Below, in pieces: positions 7,799-37,843 of a DNA stretch of 64,000 bases (the first letter of the stretch is position 1; every line of letters starts with the position of its first letter). Source of the stretch: Phaeobacter sp. CECT 5382. Lineage in GTDB: Bacteria > Pseudomonadota > Alphaproteobacteria > Rhodobacterales > Rhodobacteraceae. Where the stretch lies: contig NZ_CYSG01000003.1 of the NCBI RefSeq assembly GCF_001457775.1, positions 62,001 to 126,000 of the forward strand. The letters are read 5' to 3'. The notes under the pieces were generated by a model that was not told where the DNA came from, searched no databases, and saw only the letters and a program-made list of their open reading frames with translations. The position numbers and the translations under genes are program-made.

Positions 7799-7946
7799 CC
7801 TATATAGCGTTGACTCGCGCGTTCAATCGTCGTAACGCAGGGCCATATCCGGAAGCTCTGTCATGTCTTCCGGTCCCTGACTTGTCAGGGATCGCCCTCC
7901 ACCAGCGTGTTACGCCCGTGGGGGCAAAGCCGTTTGGCTTGCCCTC
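7799..7946 (+). ncRNA. Structured ffh leader (three hairpins)
   Basis: The 544-bp gap between the EF-G-like gene and ffh has no convincing gene. Its ffh-proximal half contains three successive hairpins: CCGGAAG/CTTCCGG (7849-7855 with 7867-7873), TCCCTGAC/GTCAGGGA with a TT loop (7874-7881 with 7884-7891), and GGGCAA-GCC/GGC-TTGCCC with a GTTT loop (7922-7944). A possible promoter is TTGACT (7810-7815) with TAACGC 17 bases later. It could be the ffh 5' UTR; it does not contain the SRP RNA tetraloop/receptor motif. The half from 7502 to 7798 shows nothing I can name. Confidence 0.4.
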
Positions 7947-22576: not shown

Positions 22577-22644
22577 GCCAATAGGTATCCCGTCCCCGCA
22601 CCGGGGTTGCCCCGGTGCCTGACACTTTAGATACAGGAGACGAC

Positions 22645-23907
22645 ATGTCCCTTTTGAAATCCTGGGTGACTTCGGCAAATGACGCCAGCCACCCTTTCCC
22701 GCTGAACAACCTGCCCTATGGCGTCTTCTCCACTGCCGACAGTGATCCGCGTTGTGGTGTGGCCATTGGCGATATGATCTTCGACTGTCAGGCCGCCGAA
22801 GAAGCAGGCGTGTTGCAGCTGGCGGATTATCCGCTGTTCGAAGTTCCCTTCTGGAACGAGATGATGGAAGAGGGCCCCGCCGTTTGGGCCGCCCTGCGCG
22901 ACCGGCTGACCGCGCTGCTGAGCGAAGGCTCAGCCGAACAAGCCAAGGTGGAACCGCTGCTGGTTGCCCAAGCTGAGGCCGAGCTGCACATGCCGATGGC
23001 TGTTGCCGAATACACCGATTTTTATGCCGGCATGCAGCACGCCAAAAACATGGGGGCTATTCTGCGTGGATCCCCTGATCTGCCCGCCAACTGGCTGCAT
23101 ATCCCGATCGGCTACAACGGTCGCGCGTCCTCTGTTGTGGTGTCCGGCACCGAAATCCACCGCCCCAATGGCCAGACCAAGGCACCGGACGCCGAAACCC
23201 CGTCGTTTGGTCCCACCAAACGTTTGGATATCGAGCTGGAAATGGGCGCCATCGTTGGCACCGGATCTGAATTCGGCCAGCCCATCACAGTAGACGAAGC
23301 CGATGCAATGATCTTTGGCTATGTGCTGCTGAACGACTGGTCTGCCCGCGACATTCAGGGCTGGGAATATCAGCCACTGGGGCCGTTTCAGGGCAAGGCC
23401 TTTGGCACCTCGATCTCTCCGTGGATCGTGACAGCCGCCGCGCTTGAGAGCTTCCGCGCGCCAACCCCTGCGCGTGAAAAGGAACTGCTGCCCTATCTGG
23501 ATGGCAGCAAAGACGGCTTGTATAATATCGAGCTGGAAGTCCTGATGCAGCCCGAAGGAGCGGCAACGGCCACGTCGATCTCCAAGACCAACTACAACCG
23601 GATGTATTATTCTGCAGCCGAACAGCTGTGCCATCACGCCATTGGTGGCTGCGAGATGAACACCGGTGATTTGCTGGGCTCGGGTACCATTTCCGGCGCT
23701 GAGCGCTCCGAATATGGCTCCCTGATGGAGCTGAGCTGGGCCGGGCGCGAACCCTTCACGCTCGACACCGGCGAGAGCCGTGGTTTCATCGAGGACGGTG
23801 ACACACTGACCCTCCGTGGCAATGCCCGTGGCAATGGTTTCACCATCGGATTTGGCGACTGTTCAGGCAAGATCCTGCCCGCCAAGAGCTGGCCCGCAGC
23901 CGACTGA
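22645..23907 (+). CDS. fahA: Fumarylacetoacetase
   Basis: Hydrolyses fumarylacetoacetate to fumarate and acetoacetate, the last step of the homogentisate route. The 420-residue product has the eukaryote-like FAH layout: N-terminal SH3-like domain (residues 15-110) and the catalytic core with EYTDFYAGMQHAKNMG, RPNGQTKAPDAETP, LDIELEMGAIVG, the DWSARDIQGWEYQPLGPFQGKAFGTSISPW block and GDLLGSGTISG. The start at MSLLKSWV follows an AGGAG by five bases. It lies 68 bp after hmgA in the same direction. Confidence 0.96.
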   Translation: MSLLKSWVTSANDASHPFPLNNLPYGVFSTADSDPRCGVAIGDMIFDCQAAEEAGVLQLADYPLFEVPFWNEMMEEGPAVWAALRDRLTALLSEGSAEQAKVEPLLVAQAEAELHMPMAVAEYTDFYAGMQHAKNMGAILRGSPDLPANWLHIPIGYNGRASSVVVSGTEIHRPNGQTKAPDAETPSFGPTKRLDIELEMGAIVGTGSEFGQPITVDEADAMIFGYVLLNDWSARDIQGWEYQPLGPFQGKAFGTSISPWIVTAAALESFRAPTPAREKELLPYLDGSKDGLYNIELEVLMQPEGAATATSISKTNYNRMYYSAAEQLCHHAIGGCEMNTGDLLGSGTISGAERSEYGSLMELSWAGREPFTLDTGESRGFIEDGDTLTLRGNARGNGFTIGFGDCSGKILPAKSWPAAD

Positions 23908-23981
23908 CGGAACAGCCTCACACAGACAGATTGGCAGCGGCGGATCTCTCCGCCCCTGCCCCCCGACAAAAGGATAAAGAC

Positions 23982-24932
23982 ATGGCCAAGGCATTTGCGT
24001 CCCAAGGGGACATGAGCGAAAAGAAAATCACCTTTAGCGAAGTGGGCAAAGACATCTATGCCTTCACCGCTGAGGGCGATCCCAACTCTGGCGTTATCAT
24101 CGGCGACGATAGCGTGATGATCATCGAAGCCCAGGCCACCCCGCGTCTGGCCAACAAGGTGATCGAATGCGTGCGCTCGGTTACCGACAAGCCGATCTCC
24201 CACGTTGTTCTGACCCATTATCACGCGGTCCGCGTGCTGGGGGCCTCTGCCTTTGGCGCCAACCAGGTGATCATGGGCGACGCCGCCCGGGCTATGGTTG
24301 TCGAACGCGGTCAGGAAGATTGGGACAGCGAATTCCAGCGCTTTCCCCGTCTATTCGAAGGCTATGAGAGCATTCCAGGCCTGACCTACCCGACGACAAC
24401 CTTCAACGAAGACATGACCGTTTATCTCGGCAACCGCCGTATTGACCTGATGCACCTCGGTCGCGCCCACACGGCGGGTGATATCGTGATCCATGTGCCG
24501 GATGAAAACGTGATGTTCACTGGCGATATCGTCGAGTACCACTCTGCCTGCTATTGCGGCGATGGTCACTTCTCTGACTGGGGTGATACGCTGGATGCAA
24601 TCAAATCCTTTGACGTTGACGCCATTGCCCCCGGTCGCGGTGACGCGCTGGTTGGCAAGGAAATGGTCGAAGCGGCGATTGAAAACACCCGCGACTTCGT
24701 TGAGTCAACCTACCGCCCTGCCGCCCGCGTGGCTGCCCGCAACGGCACCCTGAAAGAAGCCTGGGACGCCGTGCGCGCAGAATGCGACCCCAAGTTCGCA
24801 GACTACGCTATCTACGAGCACTGCCTGCCCTTCAACGTCGCGCGCGCCTATGACGAAGCCCGCGGCATCGACACCCCACGCATCTGGACAGCCGAACGCG
24901 ATCTGGAAATGTGGGCTGCCCTGCAAGGCTAA
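23982..24932 (+). CDS. MBL-fold protein with degenerate HxHxDH motif
   Basis: 316-residue metallo-beta-lactamase-fold protein. The first metal motif reads H79-Y-H81-A-V83-R84, so the family Asp and third His are replaced by Val and Arg. The later ligands H163 (GRAHTAGD) and D182 (FTGDIVEYH) are kept, so one metal site may survive. It lies in the homogentisate operon between fahA and the FAD monooxygenase, suggesting a supporting hydrolase or thioesterase role for a ring-cleavage intermediate. A clear hairpin follows it, so the downstream genes may be partly uncoupled. Confidence 0.8.
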   Translation: MAKAFASQGDMSEKKITFSEVGKDIYAFTAEGDPNSGVIIGDDSVMIIEAQATPRLANKVIECVRSVTDKPISHVVLTHYHAVRVLGASAFGANQVIMGDAARAMVVERGQEDWDSEFQRFPRLFEGYESIPGLTYPTTTFNEDMTVYLGNRRIDLMHLGRAHTAGDIVIHVPDENVMFTGDIVEYHSACYCGDGHFSDWGDTLDAIKSFDVDAIAPGRGDALVGKEMVEAAIENTRDFVESTYRPAARVAARNGTLKEAWDAVRAECDPKFADYAIYEHCLPFNVARAYDEARGIDTPRIWTAERDLEMWAALQG

Positions 24933-24940
24933 ACGCCACT

Positions 24941-24969
24941 GAAAGCCTCCGAAACAATCGGGGGCTTTC
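24941..24969 (+). terminator. Hairpin after MBL gene
   Basis: GAAAGCCTCCGA (24941-24952) pairs with TCGGGGGCTTTC (24958-24969): 12 bp with one G-T wobble. There is no long T-tract, so it may attenuate. The leader before the monooxygenase also holds TCCCGGCA/TGCCGGGA (25068-25089). Confidence 0.55.
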
Positions 24970-25160
24970 GGACCTGGCAGGCTTGTCCGGCCAGATCACA
25001 GGATACCGGGGCGCTTTGATCCAGATCGTGCCGCCCCGGATGAACATATGACACGATATCGATACCCTCCCGGCATTGGCTTGCCGGGAAACAGAGAAGA
25101 TGTGCCGTTCAGGACCCCCCGTTTGGCACCCCGATTTGGCCCGATATGGGAGGAGACCAG

Positions 25161-26774
25161 ATGAACAAGATCTTTGAAGTCCCGATGTATCCTTATGCCC
25201 GCCACGCGGATGAGGACGCAGCGACCCCGGTGCGCCGCAAGGTGGTGATCATCGGCGCCGGCCCCATTGGCCTGGCTGCCGCCATTGAGCTGGCACAACA
25301 GGGCATCGAGGCCATCGTGCTGGATGAAAATGACAAGGTGAGCTTTGGATCCCGCGCCATCTGTTTTGCCAAACGCCCGCTGGAGATCCTCGACCGGCTT
25401 GGCTGTGGTCAGCCTATGGTCGACAAGGGCGTGTTGTGGAACGTTGGCAAAGTCTTCTTTGATGACCGGCAAGTCTATGACTTCAACCTGCTGCCCGAGG
25501 AGGGCCACGAGCGCCCCGCCTTTATCAATCTGCAGCAGTATTATTTCGAAGAATACCTAGTCAATCGCGTCCGCGAACTGCAGGACCAAGGCGCCCCGAT
25601 CGAAATCCGTGGCCGCAACAAGGTGTCTGCCATTGGCACCCACCCCGATCATGTCACGCTCGAGGTAGACACGCCTGAGGGCTCGTATAACCTCGAAGCG
25701 GACTGGATGATCGCCTGCGATGGGGCGGGTTCGCCCACCCGCCGCATGCTGGGTCTGGATTTTGTCGGCCGCGTTTTTGAAGACAACTTCCTGATCGCCG
25801 ATGTGGTGATGGAGGCAGATTTCCCGACCGAACGCTGGTTCTGGTTTGATCCGCCCTTTAACAAAGGCCAGTCGGCGCTGCTGCACAAGCAGCCCGATGG
25901 TGTCTGGCGCATTGATCTGCAACTGGGCTGGGACATCGACAAGGAGCGCGAAAAGCGCCCCGAAAATGTCATCCCGCGCCTGAAAGAGATGCTTGGCGAT
26001 GATGTGGAGTTTGAGCTCGAATGGGTGTCGATCTACACCTTCCAGTGCCGCCGGATGGAAAAATTCCGCCATGGTCGCGTGCTGTTTGCAGGGGACGCCG
26101 CGCATCAGGTCTCGCCCTTTGGCGCACGCGGTGCCAACTCCGGCCTGCAGGACACAGACAACCTGTGCTGGAAGTTGAAACTGGTGATGGAGGGCAGTGC
26201 GCCCGAAAGCCTGCTCGACAGCTATGACATGGAACGGGTGCATGGCGCCGATGAGAATATCCTCAACTCCAGCCGCTCCACCGATTTCATCACGCCCAAA
26301 TCAGAGATGTCGCGCGTGTTGCGGGATGCGGTTCTGGACCTCAGCGAACAGCATGAATTTGCCCGCCCGCTGGTGAATTCCGGTCGCCTCTCGGTGCCCT
26401 GCACCTATGATGGCTCGCCGCTGAACTCGGCGGATGCCCTGCTGGATGGCCCGGCGCGCACCCGTCCCGGCTCCTCTTGTCCTGATGCGCCACTGGGCGA
26501 TGACTTCCTGCTGCGCAAGCTGGGTGACAAATTCATCCTGCTGACAATCGATGCCGAGGCCCCCGATGTTGTCGAGGAAGCAGGCATCACCGTCGAACGG
26601 CTGGCGCTGTCGGTCAAGGATGACAAATCCCTGGCCCTGAAAGAGCGCTATCTGGGTGATCACGACAGTGGCGTCTACCTGATCCGCCCCGATCAGCACG
26701 TCGCCGCGCGCCGCCCTTCTTATGACGAGACCCAGTTCCGCGCCGCCATCCGCCGCGCAGTGGGCAAGGAGTAA
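25161..26774 (+). CDS. FAD-dependent aromatic hydroxylase (MhaA-like candidate)
   Basis: Class A flavoprotein monooxygenase of 537 residues. The N-terminal FAD fold has GAGPIG at 33-37 within KVVIIGAGPIGLAAAIELAQQ, then the DG motif in IACDGAGSPTRR, and the GD motif FAGDAAHQVSPFGARGAN around D312. ATG at 25161 follows GGGAGGAG, so it is preferred over the one at 25146. It is followed after 5 bp by a DUF2783 gene. A large flavoprotein plus a very small partner is the make-up of two-component 3-hydroxyphenylacetate 6-hydroxylase (MhaAB), which would feed homogentisate into hmgA. Substrate not proven. Confidence 0.82.
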   Translation: MNKIFEVPMYPYARHADEDAATPVRRKVVIIGAGPIGLAAAIELAQQGIEAIVLDENDKVSFGSRAICFAKRPLEILDRLGCGQPMVDKGVLWNVGKVFFDDRQVYDFNLLPEEGHERPAFINLQQYYFEEYLVNRVRELQDQGAPIEIRGRNKVSAIGTHPDHVTLEVDTPEGSYNLEADWMIACDGAGSPTRRMLGLDFVGRVFEDNFLIADVVMEADFPTERWFWFDPPFNKGQSALLHKQPDGVWRIDLQLGWDIDKEREKRPENVIPRLKEMLGDDVEFELEWVSIYTFQCRRMEKFRHGRVLFAGDAAHQVSPFGARGANSGLQDTDNLCWKLKLVMEGSAPESLLDSYDMERVHGADENILNSSRSTDFITPKSEMSRVLRDAVLDLSEQHEFARPLVNSGRLSVPCTYDGSPLNSADALLDGPARTRPGSSCPDAPLGDDFLLRKLGDKFILLTIDAEAPDVVEEAGITVERLALSVKDDKSLALKERYLGDHDSGVYLIRPDQHVAARRPSYDETQFRAAIRRAVGKE

Positions 26775-26779
26775 ACCAG

Positions 26780-27004
26780 ATGTCCAATCCCCATACAGAG
26801 ACCCTGATCCTGACCCCGAACATCAACGGTGCCGATGATTTCTATGCAGATCTTCTGGCCGCCCATGACGGCCGCGACAAAGCCGACAGCGACGCGTTCA
26901 ACGCCCGTCTGCTGCTGGTTCTGGCCAACCACATTGGAGACCGCGCGATCCTGAAACAGGCGCTGGCTGCCGCCGCGCTGACGCAAGAGGAGGACCTCAC
27001 GTGA
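26780..27004 (+). CDS. DUF2783 small protein (candidate hydroxylase coupling partner)
   Basis: Small 74-residue acidic protein with the DUF2783 pattern (LILTPNINGADDFYADLLAAHDG..., ARLLLVLANHIGD). It lies 5 bp after the FAD monooxygenase and overlaps the VOC gene start by four bases (GTGA), so translation is coupled on both sides. It has no catalytic motif; the mostly helical, acidic sequence suits a protein that binds a flavoprotein. By context I infer a coupling or stabilising role like MhaB, but this is unproven. Confidence 0.75.
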   Translation: MSNPHTETLILTPNINGADDFYADLLAAHDGRDKADSDAFNARLLLVLANHIGDRAILKQALAAAALTQEEDLT

Positions 27005-27543
27005 AAATCGAACAAATCCACCACGTCGCCTATCGCTGCAAGGACGCGAAGCAGACGGTTGAATGGTACAACAAGATGCTGAAGATGGATTTCGTGCTCG
27101 CCATCGCCGAAGACCACGTGCCATCAACCCATGAGCCCGACCCCTACATGCATGTCTTCATGGATGCGGGAAACGGCAATGTACTGGCGTTTTTTGAGCT
27201 GCCAACCAAGCCGGAAATGGGCCGCGATCCTAACACGCCGATCTGGGTGCAGCACATCGCCTTTAAGGTCAAAGACCGCGATACCCTGATCGAGTTCAAA
27301 GAGCATCTTGAAGCCAATGGCGTCGAAGTCCTGGGTGTGACCGATCACTCGATCTTCCACTCGATCTACTTCTTTGATCCCAACGGCCACCGGGTTGAAC
27401 TGGCTTGCCCCGATCCAAAAGAAGAGGCGCTGCTGGAAAAACTCGACGCGGTGAAATGGCAGATGCTGGAAGAATGGTCCAAGACCAAGAAAGCCCCGAA
27501 ACACGCCGACTGGCTGCACGCCAAAGAGCTGAACGACGTCTGA
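27001..27543 (+). CDS. VOC-family protein of the homogentisate operon
   Basis: 180-residue vicinal-oxygen-chelate protein with a GTG start overlapping DUF2783 (GTGA). The two half-domains are IEQIHHVAYRCKDAKQTVEWYNKMLKMDF (metal His near residue 7) and WVQHIAFKVKDRDTLIEF (second His), with the metal Glu in DPNGHRVELACP. This H...H...E triad fits extradiol dioxygenases or isomerases. Residues 150-180 are a charged helical tail. Its step is unclear because HmgA already cleaves the ring; it might act on a side substrate or isomerise an intermediate. Confidence 0.82.
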   Translation: MKIEQIHHVAYRCKDAKQTVEWYNKMLKMDFVLAIAEDHVPSTHEPDPYMHVFMDAGNGNVLAFFELPTKPEMGRDPNTPIWVQHIAFKVKDRDTLIEFKEHLEANGVEVLGVTDHSIFHSIYFFDPNGHRVELACPDPKEEALLEKLDAVKWQMLEEWSKTKKAPKHADWLHAKELNDV

Positions 27544-27569
27544 GCACTTGACCTGAATTGACATCAACA

Positions 27570-27596
27570 GGGCAACCGGAGACCCTTCGGTTGCCC
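27570..27596 (+). terminator. Hairpin between VOC gene and maiA
   Basis: GGGCAACCG (27570-27578) pairs perfectly with CGGTTGCCC (27588-27596), then CTTCCATTTTG. It may terminate part of the transcript before maiA. Confidence 0.6.
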
Positions 27597-27622
27597 TTCC
27601 ATTTTGATAGGAAAGACCTGTG

Positions 27623-28264
27623 ATGCACGACACCGTTCTTTTTGACTACTGGCGCTCTTCTGCCAGCTACCGCCTTCGCATTGCTCTCAATCTGGCAGGC
27701 ATTGACTACCGCTCCGTCACCGTCGATCTGGTCAAGGGCGAGCACAAGACCCCTGAACACATGGCCCGCAACCCGCAGGGCTTTGTGCCGGTGCTGGAAA
27801 TCGACGGGCTGCGTCTGACGCAATCGCTGGCCATTCTCGACTATCTCGACCAGACCCGTGACCTTGGCCTGTTGCCCAAGGACCCAGCCGAACGCGCCCA
27901 GGCGCAGGCACTGGCGCATTCCATTGCGGTGGACCTCCACCCGGTCTGCAATCTGCAGGTCGCCAAATATGCCACCCAGATTTCAGGCGGCGCCAAAGGC
28001 ATGCCCGGTGACTGGATGGTGCATTTCATCCGCCCTGGCCTCGCGGCCTTTGAAAGACTGCTCACCGGGTTTGAGAAGGCCTCCTATTGCTGCGGAGAGA
28101 AGCCAGGATTGGCTGACATTTGCCTGATGCCGCAGCTCTATAATGCGCGGCGCTGGGGGGCGGATTTCTCCGACATGCCCCGTATCACCGCCATCGAAGA
28201 GGCCTGCGCCGCCCACCCGGCCTTTGCCGCAGCACACCCGGATGCAGTGAACGCTGCCAGCTGA
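27623..28264 (+). CDS. maiA: Maleylacetoacetate isomerase
   Basis: Zeta-class glutathione transferase that isomerises maleylacetoacetate to fumarylacetoacetate using glutathione. The 213-residue product has DYWRSSASYRLRIALNLAGI, where the catalytic SSCS of many members reads SSAS (Ser kept, Cys replaced by Ala). NPQGFVPVLEIDGLRLTQSLAILDYLDQT is the glutathione-binding segment. ATG at 27623 follows GATAGGAAAG. It comes after hmgA and fahA in the same direction and completes the pathway; the two hairpins before it suggest separate tuning. Confidence 0.94.
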   Translation: MHDTVLFDYWRSSASYRLRIALNLAGIDYRSVTVDLVKGEHKTPEHMARNPQGFVPVLEIDGLRLTQSLAILDYLDQTRDLGLLPKDPAERAQAQALAHSIAVDLHPVCNLQVAKYATQISGGAKGMPGDWMVHFIRPGLAAFERLLTGFEKASYCCGEKPGLADICLMPQLYNARRWGADFSDMPRITAIEEACAAHPAFAAAHPDAVNAAS

Positions 28265-29335: not shown

Positions 29336-30046
29336 CTAGGCCGAAAGCGCAGACAGGGGCATCTCGACATCACGTCCTGCAATGCCGAACACGCCATCCT
29401 TCTCCAGCCGCCTGATCAATCGCGACATGGTTTCCGGTTGCACCCCGATGAGATCTGCCAGATCCATCCGCGACAAAGGCAGGCGCATCGTGATCATCTC
29501 CCTGTTTCGTCTCCCATGCAGAACCATCAAACGTCGCAGCAGTTCGGCAAGCCGCTCTTTGTTGGAACATGTAGCCGTTGAGATGATCCGCTGGTGGCTG
29601 CGGTCAATCTCGCGGATGCAGCGCTGTGCCAAGCGTTCCATTGCGCCCGAATTCTGCGCCACCACACCTGCCGCAACCCGATGAGTTACTGTGCAGATCC
29701 GCGATGGCAACAGAGCGCGGGCCTCGGTTTGATGGGGCTGTTTGCCTAGAAATGACCGATAGCCAATGATCTCGCCGGGGTAGGCCAGGCGCATCAACGT
29801 CGAGGCGCCATCGACATGATGACTGCGCAGGGCAACAAGCCCAGACGAGACGCAAAAGACACCGCGATTGTCCTCGCCCTGTTTGAACAGGACCTGTCCG
29901 GCCTCCAACTCCTTGCGGGAAAATCCACGCCTCAGCACCGGCAGGGCATCACCGGCGACCGGTTGCCAGACACTGCCCCCATAAAAGGCGCAATGGGCGC
30001 AGGGATGTGTCACATCTGCTGCGCGTGTCGCTTTACAATCCAGCAT
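29336..30046 (-). CDS. Crp/Fnr-family regulator with FNR-like cysteines and recognition helix
   Basis: 236-residue regulator with a cyclic-nucleotide-type sensor domain (about residues 30-140) and a C-terminal winged helix. Recognition helix PETMSRLIRRLE gives the FNR E205-xx-S208-R209 pattern, which reads TTGA-type half sites. Cysteines C16, C19, C118 and C4 could bind an oxygen-sensitive Fe-S cluster as in FNR, though the N-terminal spacing differs from E. coli (C-x2-C then no third close Cys). It lies next to the nnrS/ubiUVT unit and a matching box sits at 34831, so it is the likely low-oxygen activator. A NO-responsive DNR/NNR type is the alternative. Confidence 0.88.
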   Translation of the reverse strand: MLDCKATRAADVTHPCAHCAFYGGSVWQPVAGDALPVLRRGFSRKELEAGQVLFKQGEDNRGVFCVSSGLVALRSHHVDGASTLMRLAYPGEIIGYRSFLGKQPHQTEARALLPSRICTVTHRVAAGVVAQNSGAMERLAQRCIREIDRSHQRIISTATCSNKERLAELLRRLMVLHGRRNREMITMRLPLSRMDLADLIGVQPETMSRLIRRLEKDGVFGIAGRDVEMPLSALSA

Positions 30047-30287: not shown

Positions 30288-30812
30288 TCAGGCAGCCAGA
30301 GACCCTCGCTTGATCGCAGCCTGACACCAGGTTAAAATCGCATCAGCCTCATCTGGCAAAGCTTCGGCAAGTTCCCCGGCAAAAGCATCAAAGCTGTCAC
30401 TGGACGCCAGACCAACCCCAACCAGAACCGGGATATCCTGTTCAAGCGCCGCTGCGATAACTGAACAGAAGCCACGACCTGCGCTCTCTTCCGGACCAAA
30501 CTTGTTGAGGATAAACAGATCCACCCCCTCCAGAGGGGCGCCTTCGACACAGCAAACTGCTTCGGTGAGGGCACCGGGGTCCAGGCGACAGGCATCCGAT
30601 CCCGTACCAAGATCCTGCGTAATCTGGATGACGGGGCCCGTCGGCAGAACGCGTACCTTCATGTCGCAGCCATTGGCGGCCTGGCCAGCGTAACTCTGTT
30701 CCTTGATGATCCCGGCAAGCTGGTGCCCCCCGGTTTGCAGCTTGGCCGCAATATCCGACAGCAATCGATCCGTTTCCCCCCGCTTCGAAGAGCTGACCCG
30801 TGCTATTTTCAT
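30288..30812 (-). CDS. DUF2478 family protein
   Basis: 174-residue protein of the DUF2478 family, last gene of the minus-strand ubiT-ubiU-ubiV-nnrS unit. It has a Rossmann-like layout with GVDLFILNKFGPEESAGRGFCSVIAAALEQDIPVLVGV and TGSDACRLDPGAL but no full P-loop near the start (SSSKRGETDRLLSDIAAKL), which may be a modified nucleotide-binding segment. Families like this are found near denitrification and molybdenum-enzyme genes. Function unknown; context points to anaerobic respiration or nucleotide/metal handling. Confidence 0.75.
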   Translation of the reverse strand: MKIARVSSSKRGETDRLLSDIAAKLQTGGHQLAGIIKEQSYAGQAANGCDMKVRVLPTGPVIQITQDLGTGSDACRLDPGALTEAVCCVEGAPLEGVDLFILNKFGPEESAGRGFCSVIAAALEQDIPVLVGVGLASSDSFDAFAGELAEALPDEADAILTWCQAAIKRGSLAA

Positions 30813-30838
30813 TTCACTATCCTTTGCTCAATTCGGCT

Positions 30839-32134
30839 CTAATCAAAGAGTTTTGACGCATTCTGATGCCGCTTACCGCTGAGAACCGGGCGGATGATTG
30901 GCCCCCGCAACGCAGGAAAGAACCCAACGACAAAAGCCAGCCAGCCCAAGCACCACACTCCTGCTGCCAGACTGATAAGCATCGCACCATGATCTGGAAC
31001 AACTCCAACCATGAGCCGCAGCCACGTGCAGATCCATATCAGGCCAAAGCCTATTCTAAATCCCAGGGTTGCTCGCATTTCACCACTGTGGTGATGCGCT
31101 GCTGCACGCCCGGAAATGGCCATGATCATTCCGGCCATAGCGCCGATTGTTAGACTGTGCAGTGCATCTCCGGGCGGCATCCACAGCTCACCCGTCTGGG
31201 CACCCCACAGCCCGTTTGCTCCCAGCAGCATCAGCCCCAGCGGCAGCCATAGATAGCCAAGGTGTAAAGCCGCCAGCAGTGGATTGCGCAGGGCCAGGGT
31301 GCACTGCCAATGTCGCATCTGCCACAATAGAATGACCGACAAGATCAGGCAGGCTCCGTAGGCAAGACTGTCCCACCCGACCAGCGCTGACAGAACGGCC
31401 CCCACCAGCAGCCCTGCCGTCAGCAGCCCCAATGCCAGACCACCAACCTGCAGATGTACTGCGATCCTCTCAGCTCGCCCAGACTGCGCCAGCCAGTTGT
31501 TTGTAAAGGCGGGAACGGCACGACTGCCAACCACGAAAATCAAAAGGCAAAAACCGCAGAGCCCACCACGGAGCAGGGCATGGCTGACCGCGGTCGCCCC
31601 GGTTAGCGCTGAGATCAGGAATAGCTGGTTTCCCCCACCCAACGCCAGAACAAGGATCGCAAACCCCAGCTTGCGATAGGCTTTGGCGCGCAGAATTTCG
31701 CGCAGCAGCAACAGCGAAAGACACAGAAAATAGCCGCCACCCCCTAACAAAACCACCCCCAGAGGCAGGAGCTCTGCACAGGCGACCACTGCCCGCTCCC
31801 CAGCCCAGGCGACCACCAGAAGCTTCAACGGCCACCCCGCCAACAGGGCTCCGCCCGTCCAGCTCGGCAGTGCTGTCAAAAGGTAGCCACCAAGAGCGGC
31901 ACCGGCAAAGCCGAACAGCAACTCATGCGCATGCCACAGCCCGTAGGAAACAAACAGAGGTGCGGGCAGAGACACGGGAAGGGATACAGACAGGTCAATC
32001 GCTTCAGCCAGCGTCCACCAGGCCACCGTGCACAAGGCACACAGGTAGCTCAGCAAGAACAGCGGCCGGTGCGGGGCCTGCCAAAATGTGGAATATCTCT
32101 GATTTAGAGACTGAAACTTGCCTACTTTGGCCAT
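30839..32134 (-). CDS. nnrS: NnrS-family haem-copper membrane protein
   Basis: Membrane protein of 431 residues with about twelve hydrophobic segments. NnrS is linked to nitric oxide tolerance during denitrification and binds haem and copper. Conserved histidines appear in APHRPLFLL, YGLWHAHELLFGF, LRGGLCGFCLLIFVVGSRAVPAFTNNWL, DALHSLTIGAMAGMIMAISGRAAAHHHSG. The start MAKVGKFQSLN is chosen over a longer frame lacking a start. It lies 103 bp after ubiV and 26 bp before DUF2478, all on the minus strand. Confidence 0.88.
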   Translation of the reverse strand: MAKVGKFQSLNQRYSTFWQAPHRPLFLLSYLCALCTVAWWTLAEAIDLSVSLPVSLPAPLFVSYGLWHAHELLFGFAGAALGGYLLTALPSWTGGALLAGWPLKLLVVAWAGERAVVACAELLPLGVVLLGGGGYFLCLSLLLLREILRAKAYRKLGFAILVLALGGGNQLFLISALTGATAVSHALLRGGLCGFCLLIFVVGSRAVPAFTNNWLAQSGRAERIAVHLQVGGLALGLLTAGLLVGAVLSALVGWDSLAYGACLILSVILLWQMRHWQCTLALRNPLLAALHLGYLWLPLGLMLLGANGLWGAQTGELWMPPGDALHSLTIGAMAGMIMAISGRAAAHHHSGEMRATLGFRIGFGLIWICTWLRLMVGVVPDHGAMLISLAAGVWCLGWLAFVVGFFPALRGPIIRPVLSGKRHQNASKLFD

Positions 32135-32237
32135 GGTATTCTCAGCCCCAATCCTTCCCAGCCCCAGTCTTTGCCTGTCCCCGGTCTTTGCCTGGCTTTC
32201 AACCGCCCTGACACTGTTGCGGCGCGGCAGCACTGAT

Positions 32238-33137
32238 CTAGCGACTGGTTCCTGACCAATCCGCGCCGCTCTCTCCGGTCAGAAAACCATCGCTAAGACG
32301 CAATCCGGGGGCCTTGTGTTGCAGCCGCTGTGCCAGCTCACCCATGGCCAGGCGCCCCTCAATCCGGTCCCGGTAGAGGCCACATAGGTCAGGAAATCCG
32401 CTCGACTGAGGGGACAGTCGCAGGGCAGACACGCCTGCCCCCTGTAAGGTTTCGATCTGATAGTCGGCACAGGCGTAGCGATCAGACAGGGTCTGCACCC
32501 CATTCATGGTCAAAAACGGCTGGTCCTCCAGGGTGCGCACTTCGAGACCATCGGCATCCTCTTCGCAGGCAAACTGACAATTATCCTTGGTGCGCCCGTG
32601 CAGGCGTGCGTGATAGCAGCGCCCGGAAATCGCCAAAGGCACCCGCCCATGCCCCCAGACTTCCACTGCGACACCACAGTCAGCTCCCGCACGGGCCAAC
32701 ACCGCGACCGAAGCAAGCGGCAGCTCGGGGGGCAGGCTGATCCGGGTCGCACCGCGCGCGGCCAGCCAGCGCAGCGTGCTTTCGTTGTAGACATTGACCA
32801 AAGGTCCCACCGAAAAGGCCAAGTCCCGGGGCAGCTGTGCCAGCGCCGTCAGGTCATTGACCTCGACCTCCAGCCCCAGATCCGCCAGCTGCGCCGTGAG
32901 CTTTCGCTCCCGTTTGAGCGTCACAAGCGCCAGGCTGGTCAGGACAACCTGTTTGCCTGCGGCCTGAAGGCTCTCAATCACTTTTGGGATACGATCCTGA
33001 TAAAACGGCAGGCGTTTGGAGCAGACCAGTTCCCCCAGTACGACCCGCTCTACCGGTGCCGCTGTCAGATCCTGATACAAGGCTTCCCAATCATCGGCGG
33101 CCCAGAAAAACGGGTTGGGGGCAACGGTCAGTTCCAT
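32238..33137 (-). CDS. ubiV: Ubiquinone biosynthesis protein UbiV (U32 peptidase family)
   Basis: Half of the UbiU-UbiV Fe-S complex that hydroxylates the ubiquinone ring without oxygen. The 299-residue product is a U32-fold protein; cysteines in LVCSKRLPFYQD and in SGRCYHARLHGRTKDNCQFACEEDADG match the four cluster ligands of UbiV. It lies three bases after ubiU on the same strand, as elsewhere. The substrate ring hydroxylations (C6, C1, C5) would otherwise need O2-dependent UbiI/UbiH/UbiF enzymes. Confidence 0.92.
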   Translation of the reverse strand: MELTVAPNPFFWAADDWEALYQDLTAAPVERVVLGELVCSKRLPFYQDRIPKVIESLQAAGKQVVLTSLALVTLKRERKLTAQLADLGLEVEVNDLTALAQLPRDLAFSVGPLVNVYNESTLRWLAARGATRISLPPELPLASVAVLARAGADCGVAVEVWGHGRVPLAISGRCYHARLHGRTKDNCQFACEEDADGLEVRTLEDQPFLTMNGVQTLSDRYACADYQIETLQGAGVSALRLSPQSSGFPDLCGLYRDRIEGRLAMGELAQRLQHKAPGLRLSDGFLTGESGADWSGTSR

Positions 33138-33140
33138 GGG

Positions 33141-34124
33141 CTATCTCCAGGTTTTCTTGTAGGCACCGGTGGTTGTCGCCTGGCCTTCCGAGAGCCGCGC
33201 CAACATACCCACAGGCAGGGGCTGCCCCGCCTCCAGCGCATCCACCGCAGCGCGGAAGTTGCGCACCACCTGCGCCACATAAGAGCGCGACCGCTGGCGG
33301 CCCTCGATTTTCAAGGCCGTGACGCCGGCCCTTTGCAACTGTGGGATCAGCTGCTCAGCGTTGAGGCTGACAGGGTCCTCAAACAGATGGCCCTGCTTGC
33401 CAGACGCGCTGAAACAGCCCTTGCAGAGAGTCGGATAGGGGGCAGGTTCGTCCTTGCCAACCTGATGAATTGTATAGCCACCCAGGCGCGCATCCAAGAC
33501 GCCACCAGTATCGCGATATTCCACATGGCTGGCCGGCGAACAGACCCCATTCATGTTTGGCGAAAGCCCGGTGGCATAAGACGACAGGGAACAGCGCCCC
33601 TCAGCCATCACACACAAACCGCCAAAGACGAAGACTTCGGTTTCAACCTCGGTCTCGGCATTGATGGCCGCGATCTCGGGCACCGACAGGACACGTGGCA
33701 GCACCACCCGCTTAACGCCAAAGGTCTCGGCATAGAAATTGATCACATCGGCATTGGCCGCAGCTGCCTGTACCGACAGGTGCCGCCGGATCTGTGGATG
33801 GTTTCGCGCGGCATAGTCCAACAGCCCCGGATCAGCCAGAATCACCGCATCCGCCCCGGCTGCGGCCGCATCCGCCACGGCACGCTGCCAAATGTCTTCG
33901 GCACCCGCGCGCGGAAAGGTATTGATCGCTACCAGCACCTTGGCGCCATGCGCATGGGCAAAGGCCACCCCTTCACGCATTTCGGCGCGATCAAAGTTCA
34001 GACCCGGAAAGTTGCGCGCGTTTGTGACATCATTAAACCCACAATAGACTGTATGTGCACCAGCTTTGACCGCCGCCCGCAGCGAGGCCGGCGTTCCCGC
34101 CGGGCAGACGATTTCCATTACCAT
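33141..34124 (-). CDS. ubiU: Ubiquinone biosynthesis protein UbiU (U32 peptidase family)
   Basis: Partner of UbiV in oxygen-independent ubiquinone ring hydroxylation. The 327-residue product opens MEIVCPAGTPASLRAAVKAGAHTVYCGF after a short MV. Fe-S ligands are C in GLCVMAEGRCSLSSYATG and GVCSPASHVEY and C in TLCKGCFSASGK, matching the UbiU four-cysteine set. The start at 34124 lies inside the end of ubiT with GAGGAG eight bases upstream; another ATG at 34118 is possible. Length equals E. coli UbiU. Confidence 0.92.
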   Translation of the reverse strand: MVMEIVCPAGTPASLRAAVKAGAHTVYCGFNDVTNARNFPGLNFDRAEMREGVAFAHAHGAKVLVAINTFPRAGAEDIWQRAVADAAAAGADAVILADPGLLDYAARNHPQIRRHLSVQAAAANADVINFYAETFGVKRVVLPRVLSVPEIAAINAETEVETEVFVFGGLCVMAEGRCSLSSYATGLSPNMNGVCSPASHVEYRDTGGVLDARLGGYTIHQVGKDEPAPYPTLCKGCFSASGKQGHLFEDPVSLNAEQLIPQLQRAGVTALKIEGRQRSRSYVAQVVRNFRAAVDALEAGQPLPVGMLARLSEGQATTTGAYKKTWR

Positions 34125-34726
34125 GTCATGAGCTCCTCGGGGCGGCTGAGATGCACACCTGTGCGTGTCTCGGCAAATTTGAAAATCCGCTGGACATAGG
34201 GCGCCCATAGACCGGACAGCGTCGACAGCTCAGCTGTCAGATCCAACTCGGCATCATCCACCGCATTGCGCAACGCCAGTGCCGCAGCCGTGTCTCCCTC
34301 GATCACCAGATCACGCGAAAAGAACAGCGCATCGCCATCATAAGCACCGTGAACCAACCCCAGAAGTGCAGCGAGCGGCCCGGCGATGCGTGCTACCCCT
34401 TCGCCCCGGCCCCGAACCACCGTAACACGCGGATGCCCCCCGCCTGGTGCGAGACATATGACAAACGGCAGGTCGGTGGGATCCAGCACAAAGCGCGACT
34501 GGGCATGATCACCGAGGCGGCGAAACAAACCGGGATGGCACTTGGCAATGCGCTGCGCGTAGGCCGTCAGCGCAAGCGACAGCGGCACCAGCGGCAGCGG
34601 TGCCATCCCCCGCGCCAGCAGTGTTGGGAAAACCGGGATCGACGCAGCTGCCTCTGCCAGGCCGTCTGCCGGGCCAACATCTGCAAGAAACACATCTGCC
34701 GGGGCAGCAAAGCTGGGATGGCTCAC
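34118..34726 (-). CDS. ubiT: Ubiquinone biosynthesis accessory factor UbiT (SCP2 domain)
   Basis: Accessory lipid-binding protein for anaerobic ubiquinone synthesis, thought to hold the hydrophobic intermediates as UbiJ does aerobically. The 202-residue product has an SCP2-like fold (LGDHAQSRFVLDPTDLPFVICL, VVRGRGEGVARIAGPLAALLGL, DALFFSRDLVIEGDTAAALALRNAVD). No ATG fits; GTG at 34726 lies nine bases after AAAGGA and gives the best site, while upstream GTGs at 34744 and 34753 are alternatives. It is the first gene of the minus-strand unit, 105 bases downstream of the FNR box. Confidence 0.85.
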   Translation of the reverse strand: MSHPSFAAPADVFLADVGPADGLAEAAASIPVFPTLLARGMAPLPLVPLSLALTAYAQRIAKCHPGLFRRLGDHAQSRFVLDPTDLPFVICLAPGGGHPRVTVVRGRGEGVARIAGPLAALLGLVHGAYDGDALFFSRDLVIEGDTAAALALRNAVDDAELDLTAELSTLSGLWAPYVQRIFKFAETRTGVHLSRPEELMTW

Positions 34727-34830
34727 GATCAAAGGTCCTTTCACATGCCTCACAAACCACCGCAGGGCGACAGATCGAAAACTGACCGGGGGGGTGGCTC
34801 TCTGCCTAGATCGGAGCCGCCGACAAAAAA

Positions 34831-34844
34831 TTGACCATCGTCAA
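34831..34844. promoter_or_regulatory. FNR/DNR-type box between ubiT and ubiD
   Basis: TTGACCATCGTCAA is a perfect inverted repeat (TTGAC-N4-GTCAA) matching the FNR-family consensus TTGAY-N4-RTCAA. It lies between the divergent ubiT (start 34726) and ubiD (start 34901) genes, 56 bases from the ubiD ATG, a fitting distance for an activator site near -41. Confidence 0.8.
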
Positions 34845-34900
34845 TTCAGGCAGGGGTTTTCGCTGATAGGAGCCCGGGACACTTTTCGAAAGCCCCCTCT

Positions 34901-36409
34901 ATGCGTCAGCTCCCTCCCTTCCGCAGTTTGCGCAGTTTTCTGGACTGGTGTCAGGCGCAAGGCCAGCTGACAGAGGTGACGGATCCCGTCGCCATCCGAC
35001 ATCAAATGACGGCTGTACACCGGCAGGTTCTCGAGGCGGCAGGACCGGTTTTGAAGTTCAATAGCCCCTTATTAGAGACAAATGATATGGCCCGAATGCC
35101 CGTGGTCACCAATCTGTTTGGCACCCCAGAACGGGTGGCTGCTGGTTTGGGGGTCAGACCGCAGGGATTGGATGATCTGGGACGGTTTCTTGCTGCGCTG
35201 AAATCACCAACCCCACCGAATGGGCTGCGGGATGCGCTGTCGCGCTGGCCCATGCTGCAAGCAGCCCTTGCCGCCCGCCCCAAGCTGGTCAAATCCGCGC
35301 CCGTGCAGGAGATCCAACTGGAAGGTACAGCAGTGGATCTTGGCCAGATACCGGTACAGACACATTGGCTAAATGATGCCGGGCCACTTCTGACCTGGCC
35401 CGTGGTGGTAACCCGGCCGCATGGGTCAGTCGTCGAAGAAACCAGCACCTATAACGCCGGGATATACCGGGCACAGGTTTTGGGGCGGGACCGGTTGATC
35501 ATGCGCTGGTTGCCACATCGGGGCGGCGCGGCGCACCATCGCAGCTGGGCCGCCAAGGGCGAGAAAACACCCGTAGCCATCGCGCTTGGTGCCGATCCGG
35601 CGACCCTGCTGTCTGCAGCACTCCCGTTGCCGGAAACCGTCTCTGAGCTGACCTTTGCCGGGGCCTTGAACGGCGCACGTGCGCGACTGGTGCCTGCCAG
35701 AACCGTGCCCCTGCTGGTCCCTGCCGAGGCCGAGATCGTGCTGGAGGGCTGGGTTTCACCGACAGAGACTGCTCCTGAAGGTCCCTTTGGCGACCACACC
35801 GGCTACTACAATCGCGCCGAGCCTTTTCCCGTGGTGCAGATAACCGCAATCACCCACCGCTGCGATCCGATCTACCTGTCGACCTATACCGGACGCCCGC
35901 CCGATGAGCCCGCGATCATTGGTGAGGTGTTCAACCAGCTGGCCCTGCCCACCATTCGCGCCCAGATTCCCGAGATCCGCGATCTATGGCTACCGCCTGC
36001 CGCCTGTTCCTATCGCATGGCGGTTGTTGCGATCGACAAACGATATCCCGGACAGGCGCGCCGGGTGATGATGGCGCTTTGGGGCATGCTGCCGCAGTTC
36101 AGCTATACCAAGATGGTCATAGTGGTGGACGACGATATTGATCCGCACAATTGGGATGACATCGCCTGGACGCTGGCAACCCGTATGGATCCCGGTCGCG
36201 ATGTGATGCTGCTGGAAAACACGCCGATGGACTATCTCGACTTTGCCTCGCCCGAGCCGGGGTTGGCCGGGAAGATGGGCATTGATGCGACCATAAAGAT
36301 CGACAGCGAAACCCGTCGCGACTGGGGCGCGGTGATGCAGACAGATCCAAAGGACGCCGCATTTGCCGCCGACCTGCTGGCGCGGGTAATGCCCGGAATG
36401 ACGCCATGA
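34901..36409 (+). CDS. ubiD: UbiD-family decarboxylase
   Basis: Prenylated-FMN-dependent decarboxylase of 502 residues. In ubiquinone synthesis UbiD removes the carboxyl group of 4-hydroxy-3-polyprenylbenzoate. Family blocks are present: NAGIYRAQVLGRDRLIMRW (cofactor region), RGGAAHHRSW, and the Glu-bearing TAPEGPFGDHTGYYN; MVIVVDDDIDPHNWDDIAWTLATR ends the core. It is the first gene right of the FNR box, and UbiX follows with a 4-bp overlap. It could instead decarboxylate another aromatic acid. Confidence 0.9.
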   Translation: MRQLPPFRSLRSFLDWCQAQGQLTEVTDPVAIRHQMTAVHRQVLEAAGPVLKFNSPLLETNDMARMPVVTNLFGTPERVAAGLGVRPQGLDDLGRFLAALKSPTPPNGLRDALSRWPMLQAALAARPKLVKSAPVQEIQLEGTAVDLGQIPVQTHWLNDAGPLLTWPVVVTRPHGSVVEETSTYNAGIYRAQVLGRDRLIMRWLPHRGGAAHHRSWAAKGEKTPVAIALGADPATLLSAALPLPETVSELTFAGALNGARARLVPARTVPLLVPAEAEIVLEGWVSPTETAPEGPFGDHTGYYNRAEPFPVVQITAITHRCDPIYLSTYTGRPPDEPAIIGEVFNQLALPTIRAQIPEIRDLWLPPAACSYRMAVVAIDKRYPGQARRVMMALWGMLPQFSYTKMVIVVDDDIDPHNWDDIAWTLATRMDPGRDVMLLENTPMDYLDFASPEPGLAGKMGIDATIKIDSETRRDWGAVMQTDPKDAAFAADLLARVMPGMTP

Positions 36410-36984
36410 GTGACGTCATGAGTAGCGCGCGCGTTGTGCTTGGAGTCGCCGGCGCTTCTGGGGCTGCGCTGGGTCTGTCAGTGGCGCGACAACTAAACAG
36501 TCTGGATGTCGAGATTGACCTGGTTGCCAGCGCCGCCGCCCGCCGCACCCTCGAAGAGGAATGCGGCCCCGATGCCTTTGACCAACTGCAAGACCTGTGC
36601 ACCCGGCATCATGACAATGGCAATATCGGCGCCAGCATTGCTTCTGGTTCTGTGCCGGTGACAGGCATGATCGTGGCCCCTTGTTCGATGCGTTCTCTCG
36701 CCGCTATCGCCCATGGGCTGGATGACAATCTGCTAACCCGTGCGGCAGGTGTCCAGCTCAAGGAACGTCGCGCCTTGGTATTGCTGCCACGTGAAGCCCC
36801 GCTGACGCTGGCACATCTGAAAAACATGAAGGCGGCCACCGAATTGGGCGCCATCCTGCTGCCGCCGATGCCTGCCTTCTATCTGCGCCCGAAAAGTGTT
36901 CAGGAGATCGTGGACCAGATCGCGGCCCGCGCCATTGATCTGCTGCATCTGGCGCCTCCCATCTCCAAGGCCTGGATCGAATAA
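36406..36984 (+). CDS. ubiX: Flavin prenyltransferase UbiX
   Basis: Attaches a dimethylallyl group to FMN to make the prenylated cofactor of UbiD. The 192-residue flavodoxin-like product has VLGVAGASGAALGLSVARQL (FMN phosphate loop), PVTGMIVAPCSMRSLAAIAHG, and RRALVLLPREAPLTLAHLKNM with PPMPAFYLRPKSVQEIVDQI near the end, all UbiX signature segments. It overlaps ubiD by four bases, giving a matched enzyme and cofactor-maker pair under one promoter. Confidence 0.94.
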   Translation: MSDVMSSARVVLGVAGASGAALGLSVARQLNSLDVEIDLVASAAARRTLEEECGPDAFDQLQDLCTRHHDNGNIGASIASGSVPVTGMIVAPCSMRSLAAIAHGLDDNLLTRAAGVQLKERRALVLLPREAPLTLAHLKNMKAATELGAILLPPMPAFYLRPKSVQEIVDQIAARAIDLLHLAPPISKAWIE

Positions 36985-37075
36985 ACGCAAGAGCGCTTCT
37001 CGCTTGCGAGTATCAGATTTGTCAGCGAAAGTCTGGCCTGCGAGCCGATCCACTCAAATGCAGGAGACCACTGGA

Positions 37076-37843
37076 ATGAGCCATTTCCCCTATCGCCTTA
37101 CCGGCCCGATCGGCTCTGCCGCCACGCTTGGTCTCATTGCGCTGCAGGTGGATGAGACAATCGAACAGGATTTTCGTCGCCTCTTTCCCGGCCGTGATGT
37201 GGCGCTCTATGTCAATCGAATCCCATCCGGCGCAGAGCTAACGCCAGACAGCATTGCCCAGATGGGACGCGATCTGCCGACTGCCGCGGCCCTGTTGCCG
37301 CAGGCCGCAAAATTTGACGCGGTTGCCTATGGCTGCACCTCGGGCACCACATTGATCGGCGTGGATCGGGTGCGCGACTTGGTGCAGGGCGCCGTTCAAA
37401 CCCGCCATGTGGCCCAGCCGCTGACGGCAACGCTGACCGCTTTTTCCGCTCTGGAGATTTCTTCGATTGGCCTGGTTTCCCCTTATATAGACTCTGTTTC
37501 TGGCCCAATGCAGAAGACATTCGAAGCAGCAGGCTACCGCGTGCCCGCCATGGTGTCCTTTGGCGAAGAAGTAGAGGCCAATGTCGCCCGGATTGATCCC
37601 GCATCAATCCATGCAGCGGCTCTCGAGGTTGGAAAAAACCCTGAGATCGAGACGGTTTTCCTGAGCTGCACCAATCTGCGCACGCTGGATATTATCGAAG
37701 ATCTGGAGCAGCGTCTGGGCAAACCAGTGGTCAGCAGCAATCAGGCGCTGGCCTGGCATATGGCGCACCTCTCTGGTGCCCCCCTGGCGGTGGACGCACC
37801 GGGTGTTTTGTTCCAGAAACCTCTGCCAGAGAACCCATCCTGA
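37076..37843 (+). CDS. Asp/Glu racemase-superfamily protein (maleate isomerase / arylmalonate decarboxylase type)
   Basis: 255-residue member of the aspartate/glutamate racemase superfamily. Two catalytic cysteines are visible: YGCTSGTTLIG and LSCTNLRTLDII. The fold matches maleate cis-trans isomerase, arylmalonate decarboxylase and EutA-like proteins. ATG at 37076 follows CAGGAGA. It lies 91 bp after ubiX in the same direction and ends in a strong terminator, so it may be the last gene of the ubiD unit or separate. The substrate is unknown; a link to ubiquinone synthesis is not known for this family. Confidence 0.8.
   Translation: MSHFPYRLTGPIGSAATLGLIALQVDETIEQDFRRLFPGRDVALYVNRIPSGAELTPDSIAQMGRDLPTAAALLPQAAKFDAVAYGCTSGTTLIGVDRVRDLVQGAVQTRHVAQPLTATLTAFSALEISSIGLVSPYIDSVSGPMQKTFEAAGYRVPAMVSFGEEVEANVARIDPASIHAAALEVGKNPEIETVFLSCTNLRTLDIIEDLEQRLGKPVVSSNQALAWHMAHLSGAPLAVDAPGVLFQKPLPENPS

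Follow-up and report, generated by a model that had tools for sequence, protein, structure and literature searches.

The 64,000-nucleotide stretch of Phaeobacter sp. CECT 5382 analyzed here (the window) carries ubiT, ubiU, and ubiV in divergent orientation to ubiD and ubiX, and we consider it very probable that this island encodes the O2-independent half of ubiquinone synthesis, with both operons on one FNR-type switch and with a UbiD/UbiX pair that is needed only under anaerobic conditions. Our direct evidence consists of gene content, single gene copies, linkage, co-occurrence across genomes, and a conserved box between the two operons, and the published Rhodobacter results on FnrL activation, anaerobic-only defects, and UbiN chemistry are presumed to hold in the window organism too.

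In the proposed scheme, the predicted flavin prenyltransferase UbiX would make prenylated FMN, and UbiD, a putative prenyl-FMN-dependent decarboxylase, would use this cofactor to strip the C1 carboxyl group from 3-polyprenyl-4-hydroxybenzoate. Ring hydroxyls would be put on without O2 by UbiU, a predicted 4Fe-4S O2-independent hydroxylase subunit, and its putative partner UbiV, aided by UbiT, which appears to be an SCP2-type lipid-binding accessory factor. When O2 falls, an FNR-family activator, most likely FnrL, would bind one site in the gap and turn both operons on. In the presence of O2, a salicylate-hydroxylase-like flavin monooxygenase of the UbiN type would decarboxylate and hydroxylate C1 in one step, and UbiH/F-type monooxygenases would perform the remaining hydroxylations; since these enzymes would cover oxic conditions, UbiD and UbiX would be needed only without O2 and would travel with ubiTUV. 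The window would be a clean case of such a division of labor (UbiN type with O2, UbiD/UbiX plus UbiTUV without), which would also account for the lack of UbiD in most of the sampled Rhodobacterales genomes.

A second ubiD/ubiX pair, a possibility raised in a first-pass annotation of this DNA, was sought and not found in the genome (4.11 Mb in 56 contigs, rated 100% complete), as profile searches across the whole of it returned one UbiD-family match and one UbiX. Across a sample of 195 Rhodobacterales genomes, a UbiD of the UbiD kind (500 bits or more) was present in 28 and UbiU over its cut-off in 42; all 28 UbiD genomes carried UbiU, and none of the 153 genomes without UbiU carried such a UbiD (Fisher p 9e-24, uncorrected for relatedness and overstated because the genomes are related). 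UbiX exceeded its cut-off in 32 genomes, namely the 28 with UbiD and four (G013, G044, G151, and G186) that have lower-scoring UbiD-family matches only (best, 110 to 149 bits). Two genomes, G184 and G087, hold a lower-scoring second UbiD-family match besides the true UbiD.

Linkage follows the same pattern. Of the 29 loci whose UbiU is of the window's kind (type A; window included, fetched stretches of 16 to 24 kb in all), 28 have UbiD next to ubiTUV and 26 have it divergent from ubiT; UbiD runs in the same direction as ubiT in L055 and L056 and is lacking in L046 (genome G071). UbiX lies inside the locus in 26 cases, and G087 and G183 have UbiD with UbiX elsewhere. When named genomes were scanned with an aligned set of 15 linked UbiDs, at least 586 stretches matched, and in 28 of the best 80 loci ubiV-U-T stands divergent from ubiD-X just as in the window (8 from Rhodobacterales, 18 from Hyphomicrobiales, and 2 with no order assigned), examples being Ruegeria, Leisingera, Paracoccus chinensis, Bradyrhizobium, and Rhodopseudomonas palustris; another 50 of the 80 have UbiD alone, mostly lower-scoring. 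The synteny comparison that the first-pass annotation had proposed was thereby carried out, and because the same V<U<T<D>X> order is found again in relatives from both Rhodobacterales and Hyphomicrobiales, the arrangement is not chance. In a quick tree of 31 linked and 20 canonical UbiD rows, which carries a long-branch warning, a branch with support 100 sets 30 of the 31 linked UbiDs apart from the other rows. The linked UbiD of G379 groups with the canonical rows, possibly reflecting a second linkage of UbiD to ubiTUV.

The divergent starts of ubiT and ubiD are separated by 147 bp (34754-34900), and within this gap lies the palindrome TTGACCATCGTCAA, which is probably a single site serving both operons. 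A perfect TTGAYNNNNRTCAA is found in 27 of 28 ubiT-ubiD divergent gaps (26 from Rhodobacteraceae plus those of G263 and G356), against 0.015 expected from dinucleotide shuffles, with the box centre mostly 56 to 77 bp ahead of the UbiD start. A genuine FnrL gene lies at another place in the genome, its product scoring 457 bits where the cut-off is 300. With single copies, co-occurrence in 28/28 genomes, and these boxes, the earlier view that UbiTUV and a dedicated UbiD/UbiX pair form a single low-oxygen module for ubiquinone is supported.

Much of this arrangement has precedents. In R. sphaeroides, an FnrL ChIP-chip peak with TTGATgtagGTCAA was reported together with activation of both RSP0466-4 and RSP0467-8 (ubiD) (PMC2908626), and a ChIP-seq table in the CrpK section of PMC4263372 includes this region, again with activation on both sides. 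Table 1 of PMC2908626 names RSP0466 as a putative lipid carrier protein and RSP0465 as a peptidase U32 family protein, which by family would be UbiT and UbiU, respectively. The box TTGATGTAGGTCAA of G094/L154 is identical to the R. sphaeroides one and lies within ~100 bp of the published coordinate, so that this genome is probably the R. sphaeroides strain of that study. The R. sphaeroides locus (RSP_0464-0466/RSP_0467-0468) resembles the window in that ubiT-U-V-type genes and ubiD flank one FNR-type site; it differs in that the window has nnrS and a DUF2478 gene behind ubiV and a different box sequence, and in that FnrL binding here is predicted. A candidate FNR site has also been described for 1362 of 1566 ubiTUV sets (PMC11707229), and no mention of UbiD was found in the portion of that text examined.

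R. capsulatus mutants in ubiD-X or ubiU-V are able to grow with O2 and unable to grow without it, these phenotypes coming from phototrophic growth, and UbiN decarboxylates with O2 (PMC10626278). The gene set is the same as ours (ubiD-X, ubiU-V, and ubiN [WP_013068139.1], including two UbiH/F-type and one salicylate-hydroxylase-like monooxygenase), although function was shown there by mutants and is argued here from sequence. Hyphomicrobium denitrificans also groups one ubiD and one ubiX with ubiTUV, in a ubiXDTUV set co-regulated with denitrification; it differs from the window in having a single set, Hden_0564-0568, near NO-reductase genes, with sHdrR and SoxR as the regulators studied (PMC12423496). 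The placement of UbiD/UbiX opposite UbiTUV, which the first-pass annotation had called the less familiar part, was thus already in print through the R. sphaeroides FnrL site and the anaerobic-only R. capsulatus mutants. Because Rhodobacter and Hyphomicrobium precedents are published, the window locus is a further example of the known Rhodobacter arrangement.

Candidates for the aerobic side of the proposed division are present in the same genome. Its flavin monooxygenases include two of the UbiH/UbiF type (L060 and L062), and a third, L061:1348-2580(-) on contig C14, has its highest scores with models for 3-hydroxybenzoate and salicylate hydroxylase-like enzymes, short of their cut-offs. The nearest solved relatives of this third enzyme include 4-hydroxybenzoate decarboxylase, tropone 2-monooxygenase, decarboxylative vanillate 1-hydroxylase, 6-hydroxynicotinate 3-monooxygenase, and salicylate monooxygenase. 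By sequence, the three fit the R. capsulatus set of UbiL1, UbiL2, and UbiN (PMC10626278). A UbiN-like protein was matched in all 195 Rhodobacterales genomes at an E value of 1e-20 or better, a result that does not amount to one-to-one UbiN orthology in every genome because a few matches are weaker (the weakest, in G058, at 1.8e-22). COQ4 was considered as the aerobic decarboxylase of Rhodobacterales and was rejected, being found in 0 of the 195 genomes.

Several observations weigh against an anaerobic-only pair on a common switch. Near-matches to the strict consensus TTGATNNNNATCAA number 31 across the window versus 20.6 by chance, with 1 of 100 shuffles equal, and because this excess is modest, the case for the box lies in its conservation. 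R. capsulatus ubiD is expressed and active also with O2 (PMC10626278), ubiD and ubiX are up only about twofold in phototrophy (PMC5643017), and one listing gives ubiD an FnrL recognition sequence and no differential expression (PMC4634722). The joint switch-on claimed in the first-pass annotation is not supported in the form given there; it draws on the conserved box and the R. sphaeroides FnrL data, and the R. capsulatus expression data speak against it. Linkage has exceptions too, two of them among the 80 scanned loci: Roseibium suaedae (L171) has a close UbiD-UbiX pair with no ubiTUV within its 15-kb stretch, L186 has UbiD-UbiX with no ubiTUV in the stretch examined, whose left flank is short, and G071 has type-A ubiTUV with neither UbiD nor UbiX in the genome.

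One alternative is that UbiD/UbiX serves as a decarboxylase of general use, whether O2 is present or not, and that its place beside ubiTUV is merely inherited gene order. The R. capsulatus ubiN mutant accumulates decaprenylphenol, with ubiD active aerobically (PMC10626278), the weak induction points the same way, and UbiD is common without UbiU in the class: in a second sample of 250 Alphaproteobacteria genomes, 109 have a UbiD-family match and 26 have UbiU over the cut-off. Nevertheless, we judge this alternative unlikely, as the R. capsulatus ubiD-X mutant grows like the wild type with O2 (PMC10626278) and the UbiD kind of UbiD has been kept in no Rhodobacterales genome that is without UbiU.

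An even less probable alternative, to which we give very little weight, is that the pair acts on another aromatic acid, for example one from the degradation cluster at 21 to 28 kb of the window, instead of on the ubiquinone precursor. A homogentisate pathway does lie ~7 to 14 kb from the island, and some UbiD-family enzymes work in other pathways, judging by the names of solved relatives. Among solved structures, however, the window UbiD is nearest to E. coli UbiD (2idb) at 525 bits, with 191 bits for the runner-up, the linkage to ubiTUV recurs across two orders, and the R. capsulatus counterparts use the ubiquinone precursor as substrate (PMC10626278). A score that counts against the main reading, in which UbiD works on the ubiquinone precursor, comes from the NF008175 equivalog model, where the window UbiD reaches 541 bits against a cut-off of 788. 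This cut-off is a curator's score line and not a biochemical feature, and because none of the 195 Rhodobacterales or 250 alphaproteobacterial genomes reaches it, the model does not discriminate within Alphaproteobacteria.

The predicted iron-sulfur ligands of UbiU line up with those of E. coli. Cys171, Cys178, Cys195, and Cys234 of the window UbiU are the expected ligands by spacing and position, corresponding to C169, C176, C193, and C232 of E. coli UbiU, whose identities were taken from PMC6747719. Cys39, Cys174, Cys187, and Cys191 of UbiV are conserved as well, and a structure search found no solved structural relative of UbiU. E. coli has the same ubiTUV enzymes but differs in that ubiD and ubiX are separate and serve both the aerobic and the anaerobic pathways (PMC6747719).

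Outside the window, a second kind of ubiTUV (type B) appears to do without UbiD. Thirteen Rhodobacterales genomes have type B only, and in the tree the type-B rows, those of G279, G294, and G518 among them, group in a single supported clade. None of the 13 genomes has a UbiD of the UbiD kind and 12 of them also lack UbiX, the other one being G044, which has UbiX and a 128-bit UbiD relative; G115 has both ubiTUV kinds, with UbiD beside the type-A set. Among the 250 Alphaproteobacteria, G210, G237, G279, G294, and G411 (completeness, 93 to 100%) encode UbiU and neither UbiD nor UbiX. The first UbiU Fe-S ligand (window Cys171, E. coli C169) is Gly in 18 of the 19 UbiU genomes without genuine UbiD, and in the type-B UbiU copy of G115 as well, while the three other UbiU ligands are kept in the Gly-form rows and the UbiV ligands are unchanged.

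The 19th such genome, G071, has the Cys form and is the single exception among 49 Cys-form-only genomes, the other 48 of which have a UbiD match (fragments in G243 and G373, one internal stop reported in each of G299 and G309, and no UbiX found in G252). This association of Cys or Gly with UbiD has a Fisher p of 2e-15, uncorrected for relatedness; the count leaves out G115, which has both forms, and G430, whose UbiU is split, as well as G518 (Gly) and 12 further Cys genomes in which UbiD was not searched. G071 (L046/L270) is sister to G041, which has both UbiD and UbiX. In the 28 linked loci of the named genomes, all 27 readable UbiU motifs have Cys, that of L194 being unreadable. The Gly-form UbiU loci are L032-L045, L117-L121, and L245:9001-9999; L245 is a named type-B example on a Thioclava nitratireducens plasmid, beside narIJH and hemN, of which the chromosome was not searched for UbiD.

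A 4Fe-4S cluster held by three Cys residues leaves one iron open, as in aconitase. Our comparison leads us to speculate, with considerable doubt, that UbiD-free anaerobic ubiquinone synthesis proceeds through an O2-independent decarboxylative hydroxylation at C1 by the Gly-form UbiU-UbiV. The change from Cys to Gly would give UbiU a three-Cys cluster whose open iron site could bind the carboxylate of 3-polyprenyl-4-hydroxybenzoate, and UbiU-UbiV would hydroxylate C1 with loss of CO2, an anaerobic counterpart of UbiN that would make UbiD and UbiX unnecessary. How UbiD-less facultative anaerobes with ubiTUV decarboxylate the precursor is a question posed in PMC10626278, and the Gly-form UbiU, if it acts in this way, would answer it. 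In any case, the comparison narrows this published question to one residue in one protein, which can be tested in E. coli. In searches of the open-licence literature, which did not extend to subscription papers, preprints, or the full text of every hit, we noticed no report that links a UbiU ligand change to the absence of UbiD.

There are plain alternatives to a decarboxylative UbiU: the decarboxylase may be encoded elsewhere in the UbiD-less genomes, the Gly may be a lineage marker without effect, or anaerobic use may be limited to traces of O2 at which UbiN still works. Against a decarboxylative UbiU, G071 shows that UbiD can be missing with the Cys form. The number of origins is a further point against it. 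The Gly-form tree (a careful tree that omits five near-identical rows) needs 4 changes, only 1 of which is required by branches with good support; a constraint that keeps the Gly rows together as a single clade lowers lnL by 29 and is not rejected (AU p 0.148); and an independent-pairs test of the Gly/UbiD link, with 1 supported pair, had no power. That the Gly form arose more than once is not established, and because a single origin is not rejected, the match between Gly and UbiD absence may rest on few events. No replacement decarboxylase was recognized beside the 14 type-B loci by clustering of their open reading frames (ORFs), not every one of which was Pfam-scanned.

The regulation of the Gly-form loci may also be of another kind, a further point against a decarboxylative UbiU. 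A perfect FNR box within 350 bp upstream of ubiT was found in only 4 of 19 and was discarded as a mark of Gly-form loci. Because the box is mostly absent near ubiT and an Rrf2-family regulator gene is present in 9 of 14 type-B loci (L033:13084-13626, L034:12989-13483, L038:12685-13173, L044:11948-12376, and five more), their trigger may differ, and a nitric-oxide-linked switch may take the place of the FNR box. Families that recur in the ORF clustering of the 14 loci include NnrS, DUF2478, hemerythrin-like proteins, and Rrf2 regulators.

Two further candidates in these loci were rejected. A Cys at UbiU ORF position 188 (160 in the 327-aa numbering) is present in every type-B row and was considered as a replacement ligand; the same Cys occurs in the Cys-form UbiU of several named loci and in the type-A copy of G115, and in the predicted fold, in which the Fe-S loop is modeled at low confidence, it precedes the strand whose far end bears the ligand. 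An apparent UbiX cluster in 8 type-B loci is an artefact of chained clustering: its type-B members look hemerythrin-like (Pfam on one) and were linked to true UbiX via proteins such as a fused ORF in L047. That ORF (L047:6468-7688), from G115, whose Gly set is L036, is a UbiX reading frame that continues into ScdA_N and hemerythrin domains, possibly a fusion with an iron-sulfur repair protein.

NnrS is a membrane protein family tied to nitric oxide. The first-pass annotation had counted NnrS and the DUF2478 protein as parts of the set; since only 15 of the 29 type-A loci have an NnrS match and only 11 have one to DUF2478, we regard them as optional company. They could still be integral to the ubiquinone module, for instance through NO protection of the Fe-S hydroxylases, an idea that close packing and common direction in the window would favor, as would NnrS in 7 and DUF2478 in 6 of the 14 type-B loci, where hemerythrin-like genes (8/14) and the Rrf2-family regulators keep them company. 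We hold the passenger reading to be the better one, and an integral role to be possible though doubtful, as the two genes are missing from about half or more of the loci, versus UbiD in 28/29, and the 15 NnrS matches include weak ones and ones located beyond UbiX on the far side. No nitrate, nitrite, NO, or N2O reductase was found among the 30 window proteins that were Pfam-scanned (the window has 94 ORFs of at least 150 aa; the rest of the genome was not searched), and the denitrification framing of the island is unproven.

Genes in the window were called from ORFs with Pfam and NCBIfam profile searches, which bore out the coordinates, strands, and gene names that had been assigned before. 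The leftward genes from ubiT to the DUF2478 gene are packed closely or overlap. Features of the island and its flanks are collected in Table 1.

Table 1. Positions (window numbering) and assignments of the island genes, the gap site, and the flanking genes
Feature	Position	Strand	Profile match or remark
FNR/CRP-family regulator gene	29336-30046	-	Downstream of DUF2478 gene
DUF2478 gene	30288-30812	-	PF10649, 153 bits (Pfam)
nnrS	30839-32233 (ORF)	-	PF05940, 242 bits; GTG-started, true start possibly later
ubiV	32238-33137	-	NF047965, 335.6 bits (cut-off 275)
ubiU	33141-34124 (coding)	-	NF047963, 513.5 bits (cut-off 440)
ubiT	34118-34753	-	NF047962, 64.1 bits (cut-off 46.9); first start codon GTG, true start uncertain
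FNR-type palindrome TTGACCATCGTCAA	34831-34844	none	Inside ubiT-ubiD gap
ubiD	34901-36409	+	PF01977; TIGR00148, 474.7 bits (cut-off 244.85)
ubiX	36406-36984	+	TIGR00421, 195.6 bits (cut-off 108.9)
EutA/Asp-Glu-racemase-like gene	36896-37843 (ORF)		Just after ubiX

The two flanking genes, the FNR-like regulator and the EutA/Asp-Glu-racemase-like gene, were absent from the first-pass annotation. The regulator scores 61 bits against the FnrL model (cut-off, 300) and is not FnrL; it has an HPCxxC N-terminus, and its Cys16, Cys19, Cys65, and Cys118 are invariant in 12/12 orthologues. It may be a variant metal or redox sensor near ubiTUV. An FNR-like regulator occurs in 13/29 type-A loci, one of these matches being weak, and membership of the window's regulator in the ubiquinone module is uncertain. 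Among the 28 other type-A loci, the racemase-like gene is matched closely (73%) only in L143, which belongs to the same genus, and weakly in L054.

Farther from the island, the aromatic degradation cluster spans 21221-28264 and comprises homogentisate dioxygenase, fumarylacetoacetase, an FAD monooxygenase, a glyoxalase-family protein, and a GST. A match to the ffh sRNA family lies at 7881-7932, immediately upstream of the SRP54 (ffh) gene at 8046-9575.

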